Below are positions 6,001-51,649 of a stretch of DNA of 64,000 nucleotides, in pieces. The stretch comes from Vandiemenella viatica (Eukaryota > Arthropoda > Insecta > Orthoptera > Morabidae). The translations under genes and the position numbers were made by a program. The notes under the pieces are model-generated. The model did not search any database and was not told where the DNA came from. It saw only the letters and a program-made list of their open reading frames with translations. Numbering within the stretch: position 1 is the first letter of the stretch; each line of letters begins with the position of its first letter. The stretch is from positions 271,375,930-271,439,929 of the forward strand of contig JARYHS010008074.1 in the NCBI GenBank assembly GCA_031002005.1, read 5' to 3'.

Positions 6001-6047
6001 AGATCTATTAACCATTGAGGGTTTGTTAGCCAAGTAGCTTTCCTTTC

Positions 6048-6200
6048 ATATCATTTTTCACGGTTAAAATGAGGAACAGAACTCACAACAGCATGTGAAT
6101 ATTTATTTCCCCCAGTTAATTATCTCTGTATGTAATTTACAATCGTCTGACAAGAGAAAACAGTACAAAATGTCTTCTGGAATCAAAAGGGAAAAAAGCG
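6048..6200 (+). repeat. 150-bp block shared with 38089-38240
   Basis: The block from TTTCCTTTC to GTCTTCTGGAATCAAAA matches 38089-38240 at close to 90% identity by eye. Here it sits in the outer hAT; the partner sits inside a Harbinger-like MITE. Neither side has visible ends of its own. Confidence 0.8.
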
Positions 6201-8739: not shown

Positions 8740-10227
8740 TTTGAGAAGCCATCTGAATCGTCGTCACCAGAACTAGTTCAAAACGCGGCGGAAGAAAACT
8801 TGTTTAATAGTTCTGCCCTGTAAGAACCCAGAATGAGGGTCGAAACATTGACTACAAGGAACATGACGCGCCACCACGCGGACAACCAAGAATCAACTGA
8901 CTCTGGCCGCGGAAGCCTACAATTATGTTCGTTTGATAGAAGTTCTTCAGGCGAGGCTTACGATAATAAAAAGCAGCATGTACGAGAAGATTTGGCTATG
9001 GCTGGAATGTTGTCTGCAGTTCAAAATATTACAGAATGAGGTATACCAGACATACCATCACCGTCGCATTTTCAAAGTATAAATTATGATGATATTTTAA
9101 AATGGTCGCTCATTGACTCTGCAGCCAGAGATGAAATAATTATTCTAGCAGCAAAAAAATAAAAAAAAATATTCTGTATGTCATTTTTCAAATATGCGTT
9201 TTCAAAGAGTAATGTCAAATAGAGAAATATAAAAAAGATAGCTTGCTTACTCTCAATATTCAGATAAAGTATATTGTTTTTACTGAAGTTTATTCACAGA
9301 AGGTCTCATTCTTAGTAGGGAAAAGAAGGATTTGATGACTGGAGCTACTTATCAGAGAGTCTCAAAACTCACGAATCTTCCTCAAATCACCAATACACCA
9401 TAATCAATTGGATAGAAGTGTTGATCAAATTAAACAATTTTAGTGTCATAGACAAGCATTTGTAAATACAGATTGAAGACGAAACATCAAGGAAAGGATG
9501 ATGTACAAAGTATTCTTTTTAACATGCAGTAAATTCTTGTTCAGAGGGAGCTTTGGATCTAAAACACTAAATACTTCTAATAATTGTAACTTCCTGGTAT
9601 ATTGCAACTGCTAGGAAAATATGAACCTGTAATGACGGAGCATCTCCGGCGTGTTGCTAATAGGGAGACAAATGTCGGATATGTATTCAAAACGAATGAA
9701 ATGTGTAATAAAATACTTTTCCATCACACCTGAATTTAACTCCTGATGTCATTGCTTTCGTTGACACTAATGAAGAAAAAGTCCAAGTGCGTGGATGTTT
9801 CGTTGTTAACAAGCCGGCAGTGACTCTTAGGGGCCTGGAAACCGGACTCACTGGCCTGTTTATCGATGATACTTTTCAACAAGTTCTATTTGGATATCAA
9901 CGATTGTGAGGCCAAAGTTATGACAATGGATTTAATATAATAGGAAGAAACAAAGGTGACCAAAGCAGAATTCTGAACCTAGATCTTCGAGCATTTTTTA
10001 ATCCCTGTAAGCTGTCATTAAAATTTGGTAATAGCAAGTGCTGCCAAAACATCAGTTAAATCAGTTCACTAGTCCGGATTTCTTTAAAAAATAATTTTGT
10101 TCTATTCTTCCGATCAACAAAGCTATGGGAAGTGGTATATTCAAGCACTTAGACGGACTATCACCAAAAAAATTTCGAAACTGTTTTGAACAATAGAGTT
10201 TTTAACCTCACCGCAGTTCGTTATCAC
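8740..10227 (+). pseudogene. hAT transposase, N-terminal/central part (ZMYM1/TTF-type, DUF4371-like)
   Basis: Plus-strand decayed blocks appear in the canonical order for ZMYM1-like hAT proteins. DDWSYLSESLKTHESS lies near 9336, then IDKHLQIQIEDETS near 9450. A GKYEPVMTEHLRRVANRET block follows near 9615. Further on are GLETGLTGLFIDDTF, GQSYDNGFNI (near 9910-9940), GRNKGDQSRILNLDLRAFF near 9960, and finally NRVFNLTAVRYH up to the MITE junction. Frames change repeatedly and stops are frequent. The C-terminal third is not downstream on this strand. Confidence 0.8.
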
Positions 10228-10921
10228 CATGGAGGAAGGAATATATGGAGGAGAAGTGACGTTAAATCGGTGAAGCAGGCTCTAAACTCTCCCGCATGGC
10301 GGCAGCAGCGGTATTGCGCTTCCAAACATTGCGATGTTCCCAGTATATCGCCGAAAACTAAGCAAGATATAGAAAAATTTTTATTCTTTATTTTCGATTT
10401 GTCTCGTCGTGTTACATAAGACTCGATCATTAAATTTGACTTTTGCGAAATTTTTCTTCTCCATTTCAACTCAAGAAACCTCACTTTTTGATACAGTATA
10501 TCTCTAGAACTAGGTGAGATATCGAAAATTTTTATTCTTTATTTTTCATTTGTCTCGTCTTTTTAAATAAGAATCCATCATCACAAATTTGACTTTAACC
10601 AATTTTTTTCTTCTGAATTTCAACCAAAAACCATTTCACATTTGGGACAGAATATCTCGAAAAACTAAGCAGAATATCAAAAAAAATTAATTTTTTATTT
10701 GTCATATCGAGTTACATAATAATCCATCACCAGATATCGGCGTTACCTTTATCCTAGAGTCCCCTGAGGTTTTTGTACTTATTCCCCATGTCTGTATGGA
10801 AGCGGCCATGCCCCCTCCACTCCCACCATGCCCCCCCCCCACTCCTCCTCCCGCCCTGCTTCACTTCAATGCGTGGTGAAGGTCTCCTTGCGTCGTCTCC
10901 ATATATTTCCTTCCTCCAGTG
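10228..10921. mobile_element. hAT-type MITE nested in the ZMYM1-like hAT
   Basis: Ends are CATGGAGGAAGGAATATATG (left) and, as complement of the right, CACTGGAGGAAGGAAATATA. The flanking 8-bp duplication GTTATCAC is perfect (10220-10227 and 10922-10929). The insertion interrupts the host transposase frame right after the block ending TAVRYH. No coding potential; a ~154-bp tandem array fills its centre. Confidence 0.88.
10341..10740. repeat. ~154-bp tandem array inside the MITE (about 2.6 units)
   Basis: Unit starts at 10341, 10494 and 10648 each read CAG.ATATC followed by a TTTTTATTCTTTATTTTC.ATTTGTC block and AATTTGACTTT. The period is 153-154 bp; the third unit is partial. Identity looks like roughly 75-80%. 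Confidence 0.8.
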
Positions 10922-11159
10922 GTTATCACCAGCGGCGATGTTAGCCATTACAAGATTCGGGGCGGCAGATCTTTGCGAGGCCCTTGTGCTTTGTGCAAAG
11001 TATGAGAATCAAAAGAACGTATTTCTGATGATCGACGAGAAATGCAAAAGTCATAAATAAATACATTTTGTGTTTGAAAATATTGTATTAGAGAGTTATT
11101 AAAAGTTATCAAACATAAAGACGACAAATTATTGATGATAAACTAAGGTATATTAAAAG

Positions 11160-12280: not shown

Positions 12281-14495
12281 AACAGTTTTTATAAATATCT
12301 CGCTTCCTTTACCCTATATGTTATTTTGATTGCAGAGCATAAAATTCTCTACAAATTTCGTCACAGACAATATTTCACAGCTTTAACCCTTCTTGAGATA
12401 GAGCGTGAAGAGTGGGGAGTGCTTAGCCGTATGGTCGACAGCGCTACTTACGGTACTTAAGTGTAGAATCCAATTATTAAAAACTAAGTGAATCTGACCT
12501 TTATGTGATGTGAGCATTTATTTCGCCACAGTGGCTTAAACAAACATTTTCAGACATACAGTATTCCTTGTTACTTCTCTTGTTTCTTATTCATACCGCT
12601 GCTGTCCTATAATAATTTTTCTGAGGTTTGAGTTATCTTCTATATATTAATATGCTAAGCGAAAACTTATGTTACATTTTTAAGAATATTGCGCGCACGG
12701 AGAAGTGTGAGATTTGGCATAGTTAAAGATTATATGGAGAAGAAGTGAAGGAAGCTAAAATCGATATATAATATGCGTTACAAATACATTAAATTAAGTA
12801 AAATAAAAACGCTCGCTCGCCTACGTAGTTCGCTCAGATGGCTGGTAGATGGCGCAGCCAGCGGCCTTACTTTGTCTTCTTTGGTGAAACAAAACAATCG
12901 AAACTAATCTCTGAACTTATATACAAGCAAGAAGCAACATTTCGAGGGCTGGTAGATAGGGCAGCTAGCGGTCAAAATATTGGTCGAACGTAGGAACTTA
13001 AAGAAATACAGAACGCTAAAATTATATATAATATATTTTACAAACCTTGGAATCGATATAAGCAGTCAGAGATAATCGATTGCTTCAGTTGTAAACAAAT
13101 GCGCAGTTTGTCTCCGGTTTGCGACATGGGCTGCGCAAAACGAATTTCCCGTAAACTTTTTACTCTTGGTCCAGGTCGAATTTCAACCTAACCATGACGA
13201 CTATGACAGAACGAACCTATTTAGGTTGATATGATCCCTGTACCGATAATTTTTACAGTGCTTCTAACATTTCGCGGTTGCGGAGCATCCCATATTTCGG
13301 CATTTTAATTTAATTCGTGCCGACTTTTCCGGAAAAGGAGAGTGCTAAACGTGAAGAGGACGCTATAAGGAAACAGTTAATCCAAATTTCAACAGGTCAG
13401 TAACAGTTTTTCACTGGTGGAGAATGCCACCCCACCCAAAAATATAATAAGCATAGTTAATACATGTTACAAGTAGATTATTAAAATAAAAATTTAATTT
13501 GTGAACGTGTGTGTGCGCGTGAAATAGGATCGGAGCCAACGTTCTTACGTGAATTCCCCGCATTGAGACACTCTGTGGTCTTTGGTAAAACGAAAGACTC
13601 GGATAAAGTAGAGATTAATGTTTGAAGTTATGAAAGGAATTCTTTGAAAAGGAATGTAGCGATTCTGCCAGATACTATATGGTCATTTGATATTTAAAAT
13701 GTTAAACTTTGGTTAAGTATCTTTTGATTTTTTAATTTCAGTAATTTCATTAGAGAGAGAGAGAGAGAGAGAGACAAGAAATAAGGAATACTTATTTGCG
13801 TGAAATTCAAAATGATAATAGGCCAAATTTAAATAGCGAACACACAAAATGACGAAATTATTTTGATAGATGCATTTAAATGCGCATGTTTCATAAAGCT
13901 AAAGCAGTTTTCCGGCCTTAAGTCAAAATGAATATTTTGAATTGAAATGAACCATCGATAAATACATTTCATCATTTAATATGGTTAGATTAGAAGCTAA
14001 AATTTAGCATACAGTCACGCGTGGAGTGTATCGTTTTTAATTTTATAGGTAATGCAGAGAATTACTAGATTATTACTCTTTCATGAAAGAAACTAGACAA
14101 CTTAATTAATTACGGTCGAATTTAGATCGCTGGGCAATCACTAGTTATTAATAAATAAAGACTATCTTCTGCCACGGCTTTGCTCGAGTGGAATTTATAA
14201 CGCATTCGTACACGTATTCGTATCTGAATCCCACAGGAACTACTTTATCGATCGGGATAAAAGTAGATAACCAATACATTATTCCAAATTTTATTTTAAG
14301 CCATTTAGACGTGAAACAGTAAAAACTTTCAAGCAAACTAACTTTTGCATTTATAATATGAGTAAAATGTAAAAAAAAAAAAATTGTTATCTTCAATCTG
14401 TCTATAGGGACACCCAAATCACGAATAAGCGATTCCACATTTGGGGCGCCACAATGAGATCTCGCACCACCTAAAAAATTTCTAGGGCCGCCTCT
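12281..14495. other. Right interior of the 6.3-kb hAT, noncoding
   Basis: No coding remnant recognised. Two short motifs each occur twice: GCTGGTAGATGGCGCAGCCA near 12841 with a relative near 12950, and GCTAAAAT.GATATATAATAT near 12755 with a relative near 13014. A GA microsatellite is at 13752-13774. Confidence 0.5.
13752..13774. repeat. (GA)n microsatellite
   Basis: About eleven uninterrupted GA dinucleotides. Confidence 0.97.
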
Positions 14496-37968: not shown

Positions 37969-38358
37969 GGGACCGTGCACAAACTACGTAGGTCGGTCCA
38001 GAGGGAGGAGCGGTTAGCTGGAAGGCTAAACTGGGCTACTTGGGGGGAGGGGGGGGGGGTTCCGAGCCAGGCCACGTAACTTTCCTTTCGTAACATTTTT
38101 CACAGTTAAAATGAGGAACTGAACTCACAACAGCATGTGAGTATTTATTTCCCTCAGTTAATTATATCCGTATGTAATTTACAATAGTTTGACAAGAGAA
38201 AAAAAAAAATGTCTTCTGGAATCAAAACGGAAGAAAGCTACGTGCTACGTGAGCGGGGGGGGGGGGGGGGGGGGAGGCAAAAGCCACGTAGGGCTACGTG
38301 GGGAAGAGGGAGGGTTCACAGGAGGCCAAATGGAGCTATGTGGTTTATGCACGCTCCC
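37969..38358. mobile_element. PIF/Harbinger-like MITE (390 bp)
   Basis: Left end GGGACCGTGCACAAACTACG; complement of the right end GGGAGCGTGCATAAACCACA. The 3-bp target TTA is duplicated (37966-37968 and 38359-38361), as for PIF/Harbinger. The ACGTAG/CTACGTG motif repeats subterminally. It holds two G homopolymers (the longer is 20 G at 38255-38274) and the 150-bp block shared with 6048-6200. Confidence 0.78.
38089..38240 (+). repeat. 150-bp block shared with 6048-6200
   Basis: See 6048-6200. In this copy the block is bordered by ACGTAACTTTCC and GAAAGCTACGTG, so it sits within an ACGT-containing inverted context. That context may be the MITE's own inner repeat. Confidence 0.8.
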
Positions 38359-41339: not shown

Positions 41340-42780
41340 CAACATGGAATGCCGATATCAGGGAAAACCCTCCCATCAATGGCATTAATAGCCCAGATAG
41401 CGTTTCTCTGGACAATACTGACTTTTTTTACCTTCACTCCCGGAGAGGAATTTTTGGGATTGTCAAACAGCTCTCAGCCACATAAAAGCATTGAACAAAC
41501 ACTCTGTACAAGGACATGCACCATCACAGCTTCCACTAATGAGCTGCTTCTCTTATGGATTGCGCAGGTAAAGGACCTAACAGAAACTTTCACTGCACAG
41601 ATCGCACAGATCAAAAACCTAAAAAAGTCAAACTGCACTGATGGCACAGATGAACGACCAGAAAGACAGTCAAACTGCACAGTTAGCTATTCACACCTCA
41701 CAAATTTTGGAATTATAAACCAGTCAAAAGTCACAAATTTTGGATTTACAAAACACCCTTGAGGAAAAAATGAAACAACGTTATACACCTTCTCAAAGTG
41801 TATTACACGTGTTGAAGCTAGATGGTCTCAACATTTATACCATTAATGACAAAGTTACCACAGACATTTCTCAGTGTGATGATACTCATTCAAAACTAAA
41901 ATATGAAATACAGGTTTACAGAAATGCTCTGAAACATACAACCGACAAATTAAGGAATGTCAAGAGACTTTGCAAATACAAATCCAAGAACTTAAGTCTG
42001 AATTTCATAGTTTGCAAACTGAATTAAATGTTACTGTACAAGACATAGGAACAGTAGTGGACAAATTAACACAGGTAACACATAAATAAGACACTATAGT
42101 ACAAGAGACAAGGAATAAGCTTGAAAAAAGTCAAAACCATGGTATTTCTGTTCCACAAGAAAAAATAAAATGTAGCAGCTCTGAAAAGATTTTGTTTCCA
42201 CTTTTAATTGTACTAGTTATGCACATCCAATCATTTTATTAACAACTTGGAGATATACTCCTCCTTTATTTGTATGACTGATAGTGAAAAACTAATTTTG
42301 TATATCAACACCCAAGGGGAACAGAAAAGCATGGGGAGAAAAACAGATCATAAACTGTGCTACCTATGATGAGCTCAAGGAAAATTTCTTTCAAAACTTT
42401 TGATCTACAGACAGACAGTGTGACATAAATTACAATCACAAGATGTGAATCCCCTAGTTACACATTACAAATCAACACAGGAGAGACAGTATAAAGAAAA
42501 AGGAGAATTGTGTAAAGCGAGAAAACTACAGATAGAGGAAGAGATGTCAAACTTTTTGTGGATAAAGCAGAAGAGCTCAATTTCTTCACAAATAAATTTT
42601 CTGAGGAAGAAAGTATAACAGAAAAGAACAATTTTCTTACAAACCTACTACCTGGAGAAGAAGAAAGTGAAGCAGAAAATAAAAAATTTCTCAAAAAACC
42701 CATCACCTGAAGAAGAAAAGAGTGATCTGGAAAAGCCAAAGTTCAGCAAAACAGGCTCTGGAAAGTATCAACAGGTTTAG
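41340..42780 (+). pseudogene. Decayed gag-like coding region
   Basis: Interrupted plus-strand frames give VKDLTETFTAQIAQIKNL (41560) and a coiled-coil-like Lys/Glu-rich part (41900-42030). A TYDELKENFFQNF block lies near 42360, typical of LTR-element capsid ends (W..F...F). A long KE-rich tail follows to 43036. No LTR, protease or RT is seen. An LTR-element gag is my best guess, not certain. Confidence 0.45.
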
Positions 42781-43058
42781 AAATTATATTAAAAGGGTAA
42801 AAGTAGAGAAAGGGGTTAGTAGTGACAAGATATGTATCAATAACAGAAGACATCAAAATGAAGAAGACATTGAGAAAATATTAGCACAGCAGGAAATGGA
42901 ATATTCAAGAATGAAAGGGATGAAGGATGATTCTGACAAAGAAAATGTAGAAATAATGAAAAGGAAAAAAATAAGTAATGAAGTTTGTACCAATACAGAA
43001 AAAGATTTTGCTGCAGGTGACAATGATCATAATGAATAATCAATTGGAATAAGTAAAA

Positions 43059-44409
43059 CTAGACGACCCGTGCGAAAATTTCGCGAATAAAATGCGATGA
43101 ATAGCGAGGTTGAATATAATGTCACCAAGTTCAGTCATTTCTCTTCATACTCCTACTTCATTTATCAATTTTGGTTAAAAATCCAGGGAGATAAATGACT
43201 CGAAACACAAAAAAAGTATTTTAGAAATACTGACATTTTTGCGCTTCATGGGTCGAATTACGAAAAATTCCTTTCTTAGAATATAATGTTACCATGGCGG
43301 AAACCTTAGTCTTTAATACGATATGTCATTTATCTATATCGATTAGATATCAAGGAAAATATAAGGCTCGTGACACAAAAATACTTTGTAGAACAATTTA
43401 TACGTTTTCCCATTAATAGTTGAATTCCAAACACTTCTTTCTTAAAATATGATGTCAGCAAAGCTGAGACATTATTCCTCACAATCGTACTTGATTTATC
43501 GATTTTGGATAGATATCAAGGGAGATAAGTGGCTCGAGACACAAAAAACGCATTTTAGAAAAATTGACTTGTTTGCTTTTTATGGGTCGAATTACGAAAA
43601 ATTCCTTTCTTAAAATATAATGTTACCACGGCGGAGACCTTATTCTTTAATATGATACCTCATTAATCTATATCGGCTAGATATCAAGGGAGATAAATCG
43701 CTCGTGACACAAAAATCGGTTATAGAAAAATTTATACATTTTTCCTGTAACGGTTGAATTGCAAAAACATTTTTTCTTAAAATATGATGTCACAAAGCTG
43801 AGACATCACTCCTCATAATCTTACCTCATTTATCGATTTTGGTTAGATATCCAGGGAGATAAATGGCTCGAAATACAAAAAACGCATTTTAGAAAAAGTG
43901 ACATTTTTGCCCTATAAGGGTCGAATTACGAAAAATTCCTTTCTTAAAATATAATGTTACCATGGCGGCGACCTTATTCTTTAATATGATGCCTCATTTA
44001 TCTATATCGGTTAGATATTAAGGGAGATAAATCGCTCGTGACACAAAAACGCATTGCAAAAATATTGATACTTTTGCCCTTTAAGGGTTGAATTCCGAAA
44101 ACTTTCTGGCTTAATATATGACGTCACTAAACCGGAGATCTTAATCTTTAAAAAGATACTTCATAAAACAGTTTCAGATAGGTATCCAGAGAGATAACTG
44201 ACTCGTAACACAGAAAACAGCATTTTAGAAAAATTCACATTTTTGCCCTTTAAGGGTCGAATTCCTAAAACTTTCTTGCTTAAAATACGATTTAACCGAA
44301 GTGGAAACCATAAGCTTTAAAATGACACCTCATTCGTTGATTTCGGTTTAGTATGAAGGAAGATATAGGCTTGTGACAAAAAAATACCTTATAGAAATAA
44401 TATATATGA
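43059..44409 (-). mobile_element. Helitron-like element built from a satellite array (1,351 bp)
   Basis: On the minus strand it starts TCATATATATTATTTC at 44409 after an A, and ends CGGGTCGTCTAG at 43059 followed by T. TC...CTAG between A and T without duplication is the Helitron signature. A short palindrome GCGAAAATTTCGC (43072-43084) lies 9 bases from the CTAG, like the usual 3' hairpin. The whole interior is a ~168-bp tandem repeat. No Rep/helicase. Confidence 0.65.
43085..44400. repeat. ~168-bp tandem repeat, about 8 units with A/B alternation
   Basis: Homologous points (the GGCGG.GACCTTATTCTTTA or AAGCTGAGACAT..CTC position) fall near 43122, 43293, 43460, 43629, 43794, 43962, 44130 and 44297. 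The period is thus 165-171 bp. Units 1, 3 and 5 resemble each other (AAGCTGAGACAT type), as do units 2, 4 and 6 (GGCGGAGACC type), giving a ~336-bp dimer. The last two units are more diverged. Confidence 0.9.
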
Positions 44410-45953
44410 TTTTGCTAAGCAATGAAAATGAGTGTTTTAGAATTAAAAGTGCTAAAAATAAAGATGAATTAAACAATGTAATAAAATGACAATTATGGAA
44501 ATATTTATGTTAGCTGAGAGAAGCAGACTAACAGATCTTTGATTGTCAAAGAAGATGCCAAAAAAGCAGTGATAAAAAGGAAAGTTGGATGTACTTGTTT
44601 AACTGTAGACAATATTTACCATGAATATTGAGGACTCAAATAATGATTGCCAATTAGTATGAAAGCAAGGTTATATGAACTGTGTGCCATTGAAAAGCAA
44701 GAATAGTAAAGTTAAATAAATATTTGCAAGGATTGTGTAGAGTAATATTTACAATATTTACTGTTAAAACCATTTCTTACAAAAAAAAAAAAAAAAGAAG
44801 TGAAGTATGTCGAGTAGTTTAATACCATATACTTTTCAAGGTCCAGGTACCTTCTCCTTGTGACTATTTACATCATGAACTAATATATTGTTATTTATAT
44901 ACACAAGTGTGATAGAAAGAGGGGGGAGGGGAAGGGGGAAATGCCATTTCAATAGGAAATAATATTTTTTAATTAGACGTATTGCCGGTTTTGTTAGCTG
45001 ATCAGTAATTAAAACATGAAGCTATGTAGGCCAGGAAATACAACTTTGGCTTGAGACGCTTGGGGTTGATAAATTTTATTCTGTAGCCATACTGTAATGT
45101 GATATGAAGCCAGACGTTTGTTCATTATTGTATGTATGTATGCATTATGAAATATTTGAAGACACTACCGCAACAGAACGTGAACTTGTGTATGTTTTTT
45201 TAAAAAATGTTTTTAGTCTTTTAGTTTGTATTAAGAAAAGATGATGCTTTTTGTAAAACTTGTGTAAAACTCCTAGAAGGAATGAGAGAAATAGGTATCA
45301 AAGAATGCAAGGTATTCCACAGAAAAACCACGGTAAACTTGAGGAGGGTTGTGACAAGGGAAATATTTTTTATAAGAGAATAATATTTTGTTCTTTGAGC
45401 ATGAACTAAATTCAATAATGATTGCTCTTAGAGAAAAGGAAAAAAAAGCATAGGTTACTAAGGTGATATATCAAGAGAGAAGCTAATGGAGTTTTTGTAA
45501 GGCACAGATCGGTTGCTAAGAATACTAGTCATTGTGGAAAGAAGAACCATGCCTTTTTTGGTATGAGATACCTACAATGCAGTTCCTTGAGGAGAAAAAG
45601 GAAGTACAGTAACAAAGTTTTAAAATTGTTTTGAAATATAAAGGACTGGATGCTTTATAGTTATAAGACGAACAAACCACACGGTAATGCAACAAGCTCT
45701 CTGCTCTTCCAGTGTAGACACACATGCTATCTTTGCCCAGTATTTCATTCTTATTCCGTTAGAGATACTCCAGATAAAAAACTTCCTACTACAGTGGGAA
45801 CGTCAAATTCTGTGCAAGTTTCACATCTAAGATCACCATACTATCACAGAAAAAAATTGTTGCTCGTTACTTACCGAATCACCCCTGTATTTCTCTACAA
45901 ACTGTTTAAATCAGTCAAGCACATAGTTCAACAGAAATGTTTTAACTACTTAC
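44410..45953. other. Intronic AT-rich sequence
   Basis: No coding remnant recognised. Poly-A at about 44781-44796 and a G-rich patch near 44920. Confidence 0.5.
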
Positions 45954-49039: not shown

Positions 49040-51649
49040 CTAGCTGATACCCGTGACTTCGTTCACTTGAAAGTGTGTTATAATATAAAAGTTTTTATAA
49101 TTATTAAAACTACGACCAGCAGAAAAATTTCACCTTTTGTGTTGAAAATATGGTCAACTGCTTCCTCGACTTTTCAATGAAAAGTGTACATCGAAGCTAG
49201 GACAAAGGTGACAAAGGTATAACGTGCGCTGAAAGATACGGTTAAACATTACTCACTTAGTGGCAATAGACAACTTGAGCAGATTCTGACAATTAGTCAG
49301 AATTCGGCATGGCAGCCACCTTCTTCACTCCAAACCCACTCTACATCATGGAGTATTAGTAGTCATTCTGGTCCAGGCTGTACTTCAACCTTACCACAAC
49401 CTTCGTTAATATAGCTCCTTGGAAATCAGCTTTTTGTTTCAAATTTTGATTTTTCACATACATTGTGACACATATTATGAATGGAATTACTGTCCGCAAA
49501 TGAAGACATCTACTTGTCAACTTACCGACAGTACGACTTCAAAAAATTTTAGGTTTAAGAACAGATTTACATTTCCTGCACCGGAACTATTATCATAAAT
49601 CTTTTGATACAATTTGAGTTCAATGTGATACATGTAACTAAACTGGAGCTCATGAAAGCAACGTAAATTACTAATAATGTTTCAGTTGTCATTCTGGTTA
49701 AGATTGTATTTCAACCTAACCACAAACTCCTCTAACATTGTCACTAGAAAATAAAGGGGTCTATCACTCGTGCATATTGCATGTATGTGCAGGAAAGGGG
49801 GAAGACGGGTGTGTAGGGAGACTACCACTGGAGTGTGCGCTCCATTGCAATTTTAATTACATTAAACTTGACCCATAATTTCCGATTGTTATGTTAAAGA
49901 AACCGCTAAAATCTGGTTGAACATGACCTTTGGAAACTTACAGTCATAAAAACGAAGGAAACAATGAATACATGTGGAACTACATTCAGCTACATGAACT
50001 GTAGTGTCACATCATGACAGTTATTAAAGTAACATAAGTTAAAAATATATACTCAAATGCTGATAGCTGTACAACAGAAAGTCCAGAATTCATTACAACT
50101 CTTAACACACCTTATGTTAATATTGCGGGTCAAATTTACATCGCAATACTGTGATTGTGTTAGTGTGTATGTTTTAGTCCAGTTGCAGTTCATACTGAAG
50201 ATGTATAATGTAATCAATTGTGATAATTAATGCTAATCTAATTGGGAATCCTGACATAGAAAATGTTGCTACTACTCGAAACATAGCTCCGACGCGTTTA
50301 ATGTGTTAAGGTGTGTCTGTATCATTTGATTTTGTAGCGGCAATATTAGCGGAGTTATTGGATGGTTGAATTGTTGCCTGGACCAGAATGTTCTTGCTGC
50401 AGCATAATGCACAAGGAATTTAGTTATTATAAGTAATAAATAAGCTGCTTTCATAAGCGTCATAAGTGACGACGTGTATCGTGATGTTACCTATTCCTAA
50501 AATGGTTTCTCGAAACAAAAAGTTTCTACCTTAGGCTATTGAATACATTCGTTTTAAGTGAAAGATATAATAATGATTGGAAGAATACTGAACAGTAAGT
50601 AAAAAACATTGTTTTGCTTATCATAGGGTACTATTTGTAGTGATATCTACAAAAATTTTGGACAAAAAAAATGTGTATAGTAGCTGAAAAAAAGACACTC
50701 AGGCAGTAAATTGAGAGGTAGAATCAAAACCATTACATATTTGTCATGAACATACAAAAGCTACAGTTCATACCTATTCCTAAAATAGTTTCTCGAAACA
50801 AAAAGTTTCTACCTTAGGCTATTGAATACATTCGTTTTAAGTGAAAGATATAATAATGATTGGAAGAATATTGAAGAGTAAGTAAAAAACATTGTTTTGC
50901 TTATCATAGGGTACTATTTGTAGTGATATCTAAAAAAAATTTGGACAAAAAAAATGTGTATAGTAGGGGAAAAAAAAAGACACACAGACAGTAAATTGAG
51001 AGGCAGAATCAAAACCATTACATATTTGTCATGAACATACAAAAGCTACAGTTCATGCACAGCCATTTTGTCACTTTTAGTGCCCCGACTTTTGTGCTGG
51101 TATACTCTTGGATTTTTACAATCTTTTTTCCACCCAAGCTTTCATTTCTCACGTGTATTATGCCACATATATTACCAATGGAATTATGCTTTGCTTCATA
51201 AGGTGTTACACTATTTCATGTAGGTAACTGATGTCAACTTTTTGTGAACATGCCAGCAGTACAATTTAAAAAAACTTAATGTTGTATACATTTATATTTC
51301 CCACTTCTGAACTATTATTAGTTAAGTGCAATAGTTTTGGTGCTTTTCAACTAAACACACACATGTATATATCAGAAGATTTTTCCTTTTGTTGCTGAAA
51401 AGAAGTGTTTCTGGTGCACAATAAAAGCAAAGAGTAAACATGGCACTGCCATCTATGATTTAGGAAACTCTTTGATGTTTGTGAATTGATAATTGCCTTT
51501 TCTAAAGGGACTATACTATGTCACTACGCACACAATTTACTAACTCCGTGCCAAATTTCATTTGAATCTGTTGAGCAATTTAAAGTCTGATTGAGGCCAT
51601 CAGTATATCCAAACATACATCCAAACTTTCTCATTTATGTAGATATAGA
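49040..51649 (-). mobile_element. Nonautonomous Helitron (2,610 bp) inside the CR1-like LINE
   Basis: Minus strand: 5' TCTATATCTACATAAATGAG at 51649, 3' GGTATCAGCTAG at 49040. A GTGAACGAAGTCAC hairpin lies about 10 bases before the end. It sits between A and T without duplication: flanks GCAAA | TC...CTAG | TACC. Joining the flanks restores the LINE endonuclease frame (FAN, then TLIREGGF), so the boundaries are supported by an empty-site reading. No Rep/helicase is visible. It contains a 284-bp tandem duplication. Confidence 0.9.
50488..51055. repeat. Tandem duplication, two units of 283 and 285 bp
   Basis: Units 50488-50770 and 50771-51055, both from TACCTATTCCTAAAAT to CTACAGTTCA. About ten mismatches plus a small A-run difference, i.e. 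roughly 96% identical. A recent event inside the Helitron. Confidence 0.93.

Follow-up and report, generated by a model that had tools for sequence, protein, structure and literature searches.

The tandem array and its dimer pattern

The window, by which we mean the whole 64-kb stretch of DNA that was analysed, contains a short tandem array bordered on its left by a non-repeat segment and on its right by a dinucleotide that had been proposed, in an earlier note on this DNA, as the other end of a Helitron. In motifs with a slash, the slash marks the proposed boundary of the element. The features are the following:

43113–44400, no strand assigned: tandem array with units of 166–168 bp, seven full and one cut (TRF, BLAST and a phase motif).
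43059–43112, minus strand: non-repeat segment of 54 bp, proposed 3′ end of a Helitron-type element; the array begins sharply at 43113.
43072–43084, minus strand: small hairpin with a 5-bp stem and a 3-nt loop, 9 nt ahead of CTAG (scan for a hairpin plus CTRR/T).
43059–43062, minus strand: CTAG, proposed 3′ terminus, followed by T (minus-strand reading).
44408–44409, minus strand: TC, proposed 5′ terminus, preceded by A, within the zone of similarity to units 2, 4, 6 and 7.

TRF made two overlapping calls, the first at 43113–44287 (period 334, score 1491, 3.5 copies) and the second at 43154–44384 (period 167, score 1108, 7.4 copies). Self-identity of the array is 66.6% at a lag of 334 and 45% at lags of 167 and 168, and a 29-nt phase motif, counted wherever at least 18 of the 29 nt matched, occurs eight times between 43185 and 44356. 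The satellite of about eight ∼ 168-bp units described in the earlier note is therefore a real tandem array, with seven full units of 166–168 bp and a cut eighth. Identity is 82–89% among units 1, 3 and 5 (type A), 79–84% among units 2, 4 and 6 (type B) and 62–76% between the two types. The array is thus an A/B dimer pattern of 334 bp, which indicates at least one round of copying of a two-unit block since the divergence of A and B. The alternation claimed earlier is seen in these identities, although its period is 334 rather than ∼ 336 bp and it does not extend to unit 7, which is 66–76% identical to units 1–6, lies about equally near A and B and is clearly of neither type. Unit 8, cut at about 119 bp, leans towards B (68–71% identity, versus 62–66% to units 1, 3 and 5). 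Thus, the units near the right edge took no part in the copying of two-unit blocks.

No second copy of the array was found in the window by self-comparison or BLAST, and the longest frame lying wholly within the array element does not exceed 61 codons. The ratio of observed to expected CpG in the array is 1.26; the 186 overlapping segments taken from the rest of the window have a median of 0.57, and only three of them, all from a single region at 12.6–14.5 kb, reach the array's value. That region (12559–14490, three overlapping segments) has ratios of 1.27–1.29, as high as those of the array. At one site of the array, units 1, 3, 5 and 7 have CG and units 2, 4 and 6 have TG. Units that differ by 11–38% and yet have kept their CpG suggest divergence prior to arrival at this site, although a repeat that is simply CpG-rich would look alike. 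There was no marked 10-bp dinucleotide rhythm in the array (the peak, at 11.1, was equalled in 6 of 85 background segments). A search of Rfam gave no matches; pattern scans of viral contigs gave matches of 17–30 bp at five loci, taken as chance, and none for the 3′ end; and a single exact 26-base pattern, a narrow test in the wrong kind of organism, had no match in prokaryote genomes.

The left edge and the proposed 3′ end

The left edge of the array is sharp, position 43113 being the exact start of two independent BLAST pairings. Homology of the adjoining 54 bp to the repeat unit was considered and rejected, since 32 of 300 shuffled sequences were as similar. Canonical Helitrons are described as having a 5′ TC, a 3′ CTRR, a palindrome of 16–20 nt about 11 bp from the 3′ end and insertion between A and T without target duplication (PMC4067079). 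On the minus strand, the 54-bp segment ends in CTAG, which conforms to CTRR, and carries a palindrome of 13 nt that ends 13 nt from the 3′ end; its position fits that of a canonical Helitron and its length does not. The short hairpin reported in the earlier note is present (5-bp stem, 3-nt loop) but folds no better than shuffled sequence: the 54-nt end has a z score of −0.69 and 47 of 200 shuffles folded as well, so that taken alone it is not above chance. A literature search with the hairpin string plus ‘Helitron’ returned no match.

Sites combining a hairpin with CTRR/T, by criteria fixed after the site had been seen, number 15 in the window (both strands, 128 kb of strand). Only one of them, the CTAG/T at 43059–43062, lies between 42500 and 45000, and it is in the right orientation.

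The right edge and the proposed 5′ end

The right edge is less well defined. Similarity to units 1, 3 and 5 ends at 44397–44401, whereas similarity to units 2, 4, 6 and 7 runs past the TC at 44409, to 44412–44415. As the unit alignments end on both sides of TC, the edge is placed between about 44397 and 44415 and the TC is not singled out. On their own, the 25 nt past 44409 are not similar to the repeat (215 of 300 shuffles were as good), and the few T-rich letters past TC could match it by chance. There is no separate 5′ domain, and the TC is not distinct from the repeat. The TC and CTAG ends with A and T flanks that the earlier note had listed are indeed there, on the minus strand and with this reservation about TC; A and T stand at the proposed ends (A/TC and CTAG/T). 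An element on the plus strand, from a TC near 43040 to a CTAA near 44415, was also considered and dropped: the letter after CTAA is G, and the scan gave no qualifying hairpin site at that place.

The two ends were also assessed as a pair. A/TC within 60 bp of one edge, together with a hairpin plus CTRR/T near the other, was found for 561 of the 62,512 positions at which a 1288-bp segment was placed in the window, a count in which the right edge was taken as 44400, the thresholds were chosen after the site had been seen and the array's own placements are included. This value (0.9%) lends modest support to the end pair, mainly from the 3′ side, an A/TC within 60 bp being easily found.

Origin of the array

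The explanation that we favour, at roughly even odds, is that this short satellite-like array derives from a non-autonomous Helitron-type (rolling-circle) element with a recognizable 3′ end and a 5′ end that is uncertain or lost. Several lines of evidence point this way: the sharp edge at 43113, followed by 54 bp that end in a hairpin and CTAG/T; the correct orientation of this site and its being the only one of its kind in 42500–45000; the frequency of the end pair among placements; the absence of any frame above 61 codons, along with the contrast in CpG; and the published precedents of 138–181-bp cores and of one-sided arrays discussed below. The weakness and shortness of the hairpin, the position of TC within the repeat similarity and the single copy in the window speak against it. 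The 5′ end would lie at the TC at 44409, and then have hardly any sequence to itself, or would have been lost, as in the one-sided arrays. Of the earlier proposal of a Helitron-like element consisting almost wholly of satellite, the 3′ side fits a Helitron-type element, but the evidence falls short of a complete TC-to-CTAG element, given the indistinct TC, a hairpin at chance level and the lack of a second copy in the window. Because of the short palindrome and the fold z score of −0.69, we class the locus as Helitron-like rather than as a canonical Helitron; the features tested make it neither a clean canonical Helitron, in view of the palindrome length and the indistinct TC, nor a Helentron, which would have subterminal repeats.

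We infer that such an element was mobile and relied on enzymes supplied in trans. A Rep/helicase encoded elsewhere in the genome would copy one strand, copying would proceed towards the hairpin and CTAG and stop near them, and the array would be carried along into an A/T site, where it could lengthen or shorten through unequal exchange or repeated copying.

The main competitor, to which we give perhaps one chance in three, is a stand-alone short satellite array that arrived through recombination or the reinsertion of an extrachromosomal circle and that happens to adjoin Helitron-like letters. Such an origin would sit well with the shortness of the end motifs, a hairpin that folds no better than shuffles, a right edge that reaches or passes TC, the lack of a second copy in the window and an end-pair frequency that rests mainly on the 3′ side. 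It accounts poorly, however, for a sharp left edge with a correctly oriented hairpin and CTRR/T within 54 bp, when there are only 15 such sites in 128 kb of strand.

It is rather unlikely that the array forms the core of a transposon of a different kind (a Helentron/HINE or an inverted-repeat element) with true ends that are decayed or located elsewhere. The oyster elements with 138–181-bp cores are classed as Helentron-type (PMC7492417), and the present window itself has an element at about 10203–10943 with imperfect inverted ends around a different array of ∼ 153 bp. Inverted repeats linking the ends of 43059–44409 were nevertheless rejected (325 of 500 and 269 of 500 shuffles were as good): the best inverted match between the ends is 6 bp, short of the 12–15-bp subterminal inverted repeats of Helentron/HINE elements. 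Beyond the element ends, the search covered short inverted repeats separated by no more than 60 nt within 42900–44600.

Least probable, and in our estimate improbable, is that the satellite unit itself is the 5′ end of the element, so that rolling-circle copying might begin at any unit and the transposition reaction would determine how long the array is; the idea draws on the repeat similarity running through TC and the missing 5′ domain, but the phase test did not appear to bear it out, TC standing 19–20 nt ahead of the anchor in only four of seven units (1, 3, 5 and 6; absent there in 2, 4 and 7, with alignments that disagree among units) and the 24-nt 5′ end being matched to the units as well by 15 of 300 shuffles.

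Comparison with known Helitron-associated satellites

Helentron/HINE elements have 12–15-bp subterminal inverted repeats and, in some members, central tandem repeats (PMC4067079, PMC7492417); the latter feature is present at this locus. The Cg_HINE elements of Crassostrea gigas have consensus monomers of 138–181 bp, with averages of 2.3 to 5 monomers per array, and monomers of 160–180 bp make up 51% of the total (PMC7492417). The likeness to the locus described here lies in a non-coding core formed by a short satellite-like array and, for the ends proposed here, in sites that are T-rich or A/T, without target duplication. Unlike the present locus, which has CTAG, a proposed A/T site and no inverted complementarity, Cg_HINE has subterminal inverted repeats, a microsatellite on the left and a preferred TT site, and it is found in thousands of arrays as opposed to a single locus (PMC7492417). 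The TRF list has no microsatellite beside our array; an 8-bp TA run is visible by eye at the right edge.

In Drosophila, 154TR is the tandem repeat of the Helitron family DINE-TR1 (PMC6922343). The resemblance to the present array, judged by description, is that of a dispersed tandem repeat linked to a family of Helitrons; the Drosophila copies, unlike our single locus, were placed by FISH and in many genomes. Among the oyster satellites inspected in PMC8268682, 9 of 11 were mainly associated with elements, and arrays in which Helitron parts border just one side have been described in oyster (PMC12628747) and counted (PMC8268682). Our locus likewise has a recognizable Helitron-type end on one side and no clear one on the other, whereas the oyster arrays were counted genome-wide and ours is one array. 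According to PMC12628747, a circular template that has lost its 3′ stop would yield arrays made of repeated 5′ parts and a single 3′ end, and the same source relates that the tandem truncated Helitrons of plants (Xiong et al. 2016) have many 5′ ends and one 3′ end. The array shares with the latter a repeated part on the 5′ side of a single 3′ end but differs in that units beginning with the element's own 5′ end were not borne out by the shuffle and anchor tests described above.

The spread of satellites by Helitron-type elements is already in print for oysters and fruit flies, and this locus is probably a further case. One published explanation for the scattering of satellites along chromosome arms is that they are cores of Helitron-type elements; a case that combines a CTAG end with a clear dimer and lacks a separate 5′ domain would add to the Helentron/HINE cases and would allow one to ask if array length is set by rolling-circle copying. 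Being a single, unreplicated locus, it contributes a probable example and not a principle.

Surroundings and other repeats in the window

A 118-codon frame, which has no Pfam match, stops at 43039, at a distance of 19 bp from CTAG. Further upstream, the frame at 42424–42615 barely reached the curated cut-off for Homez (21.3 versus 21.0 bits), and the other five of the six frames scanned fell below theirs. To the right of the array, AATAAA at 44715–44720 is followed about 60 bp on by a run of 16 A (44781–44796), a possible 3′ end of a retro-inserted sequence, in whose remains the array site may fall. No feature of the surroundings points to an intron.

Transposon domains were found in four of eight frames scanned in the window (RVT_1 with an endonuclease, hAT, RNase H and DDE_3). 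The transposase search listed 120 of its 359 matches; of the 22 listed with an organism name, 12 were from hemipterans, five from decapods, three from ticks and one each from a brittle star and a bacterial symbiont. Among the matches listed, the closest are without an organism name, and the best of those that have one reaches 44% identity. Indirectly, these names hint at a host that is probably an arthropod.

The segment at 10203–10943 has imperfect inverted ends (about 10203–10279 and 10855–10943; alignment score 67, without a shuffle control) and encloses at 10341–10705 a different, degenerate tandem array with a period of ∼ 153 bp, the copies being 77% identical; the segment resembles an inverted-repeat element that has a satellite-like core of its own. 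Kinship between this array and the one at 43113–44400 was rejected, the scores of 68 and 81 being under the best of 100 shuffles per orientation. A dispersed repeat of 171 bp, near the length of the satellite unit, occurs 32 kb apart at 6029–6199 and 38071–38238 (89% identity) and did not match the array in the self-comparison of the window. Finally, a unit of about 283 bp is directly duplicated at 50488–51056, with copies that are 95.8% identical.
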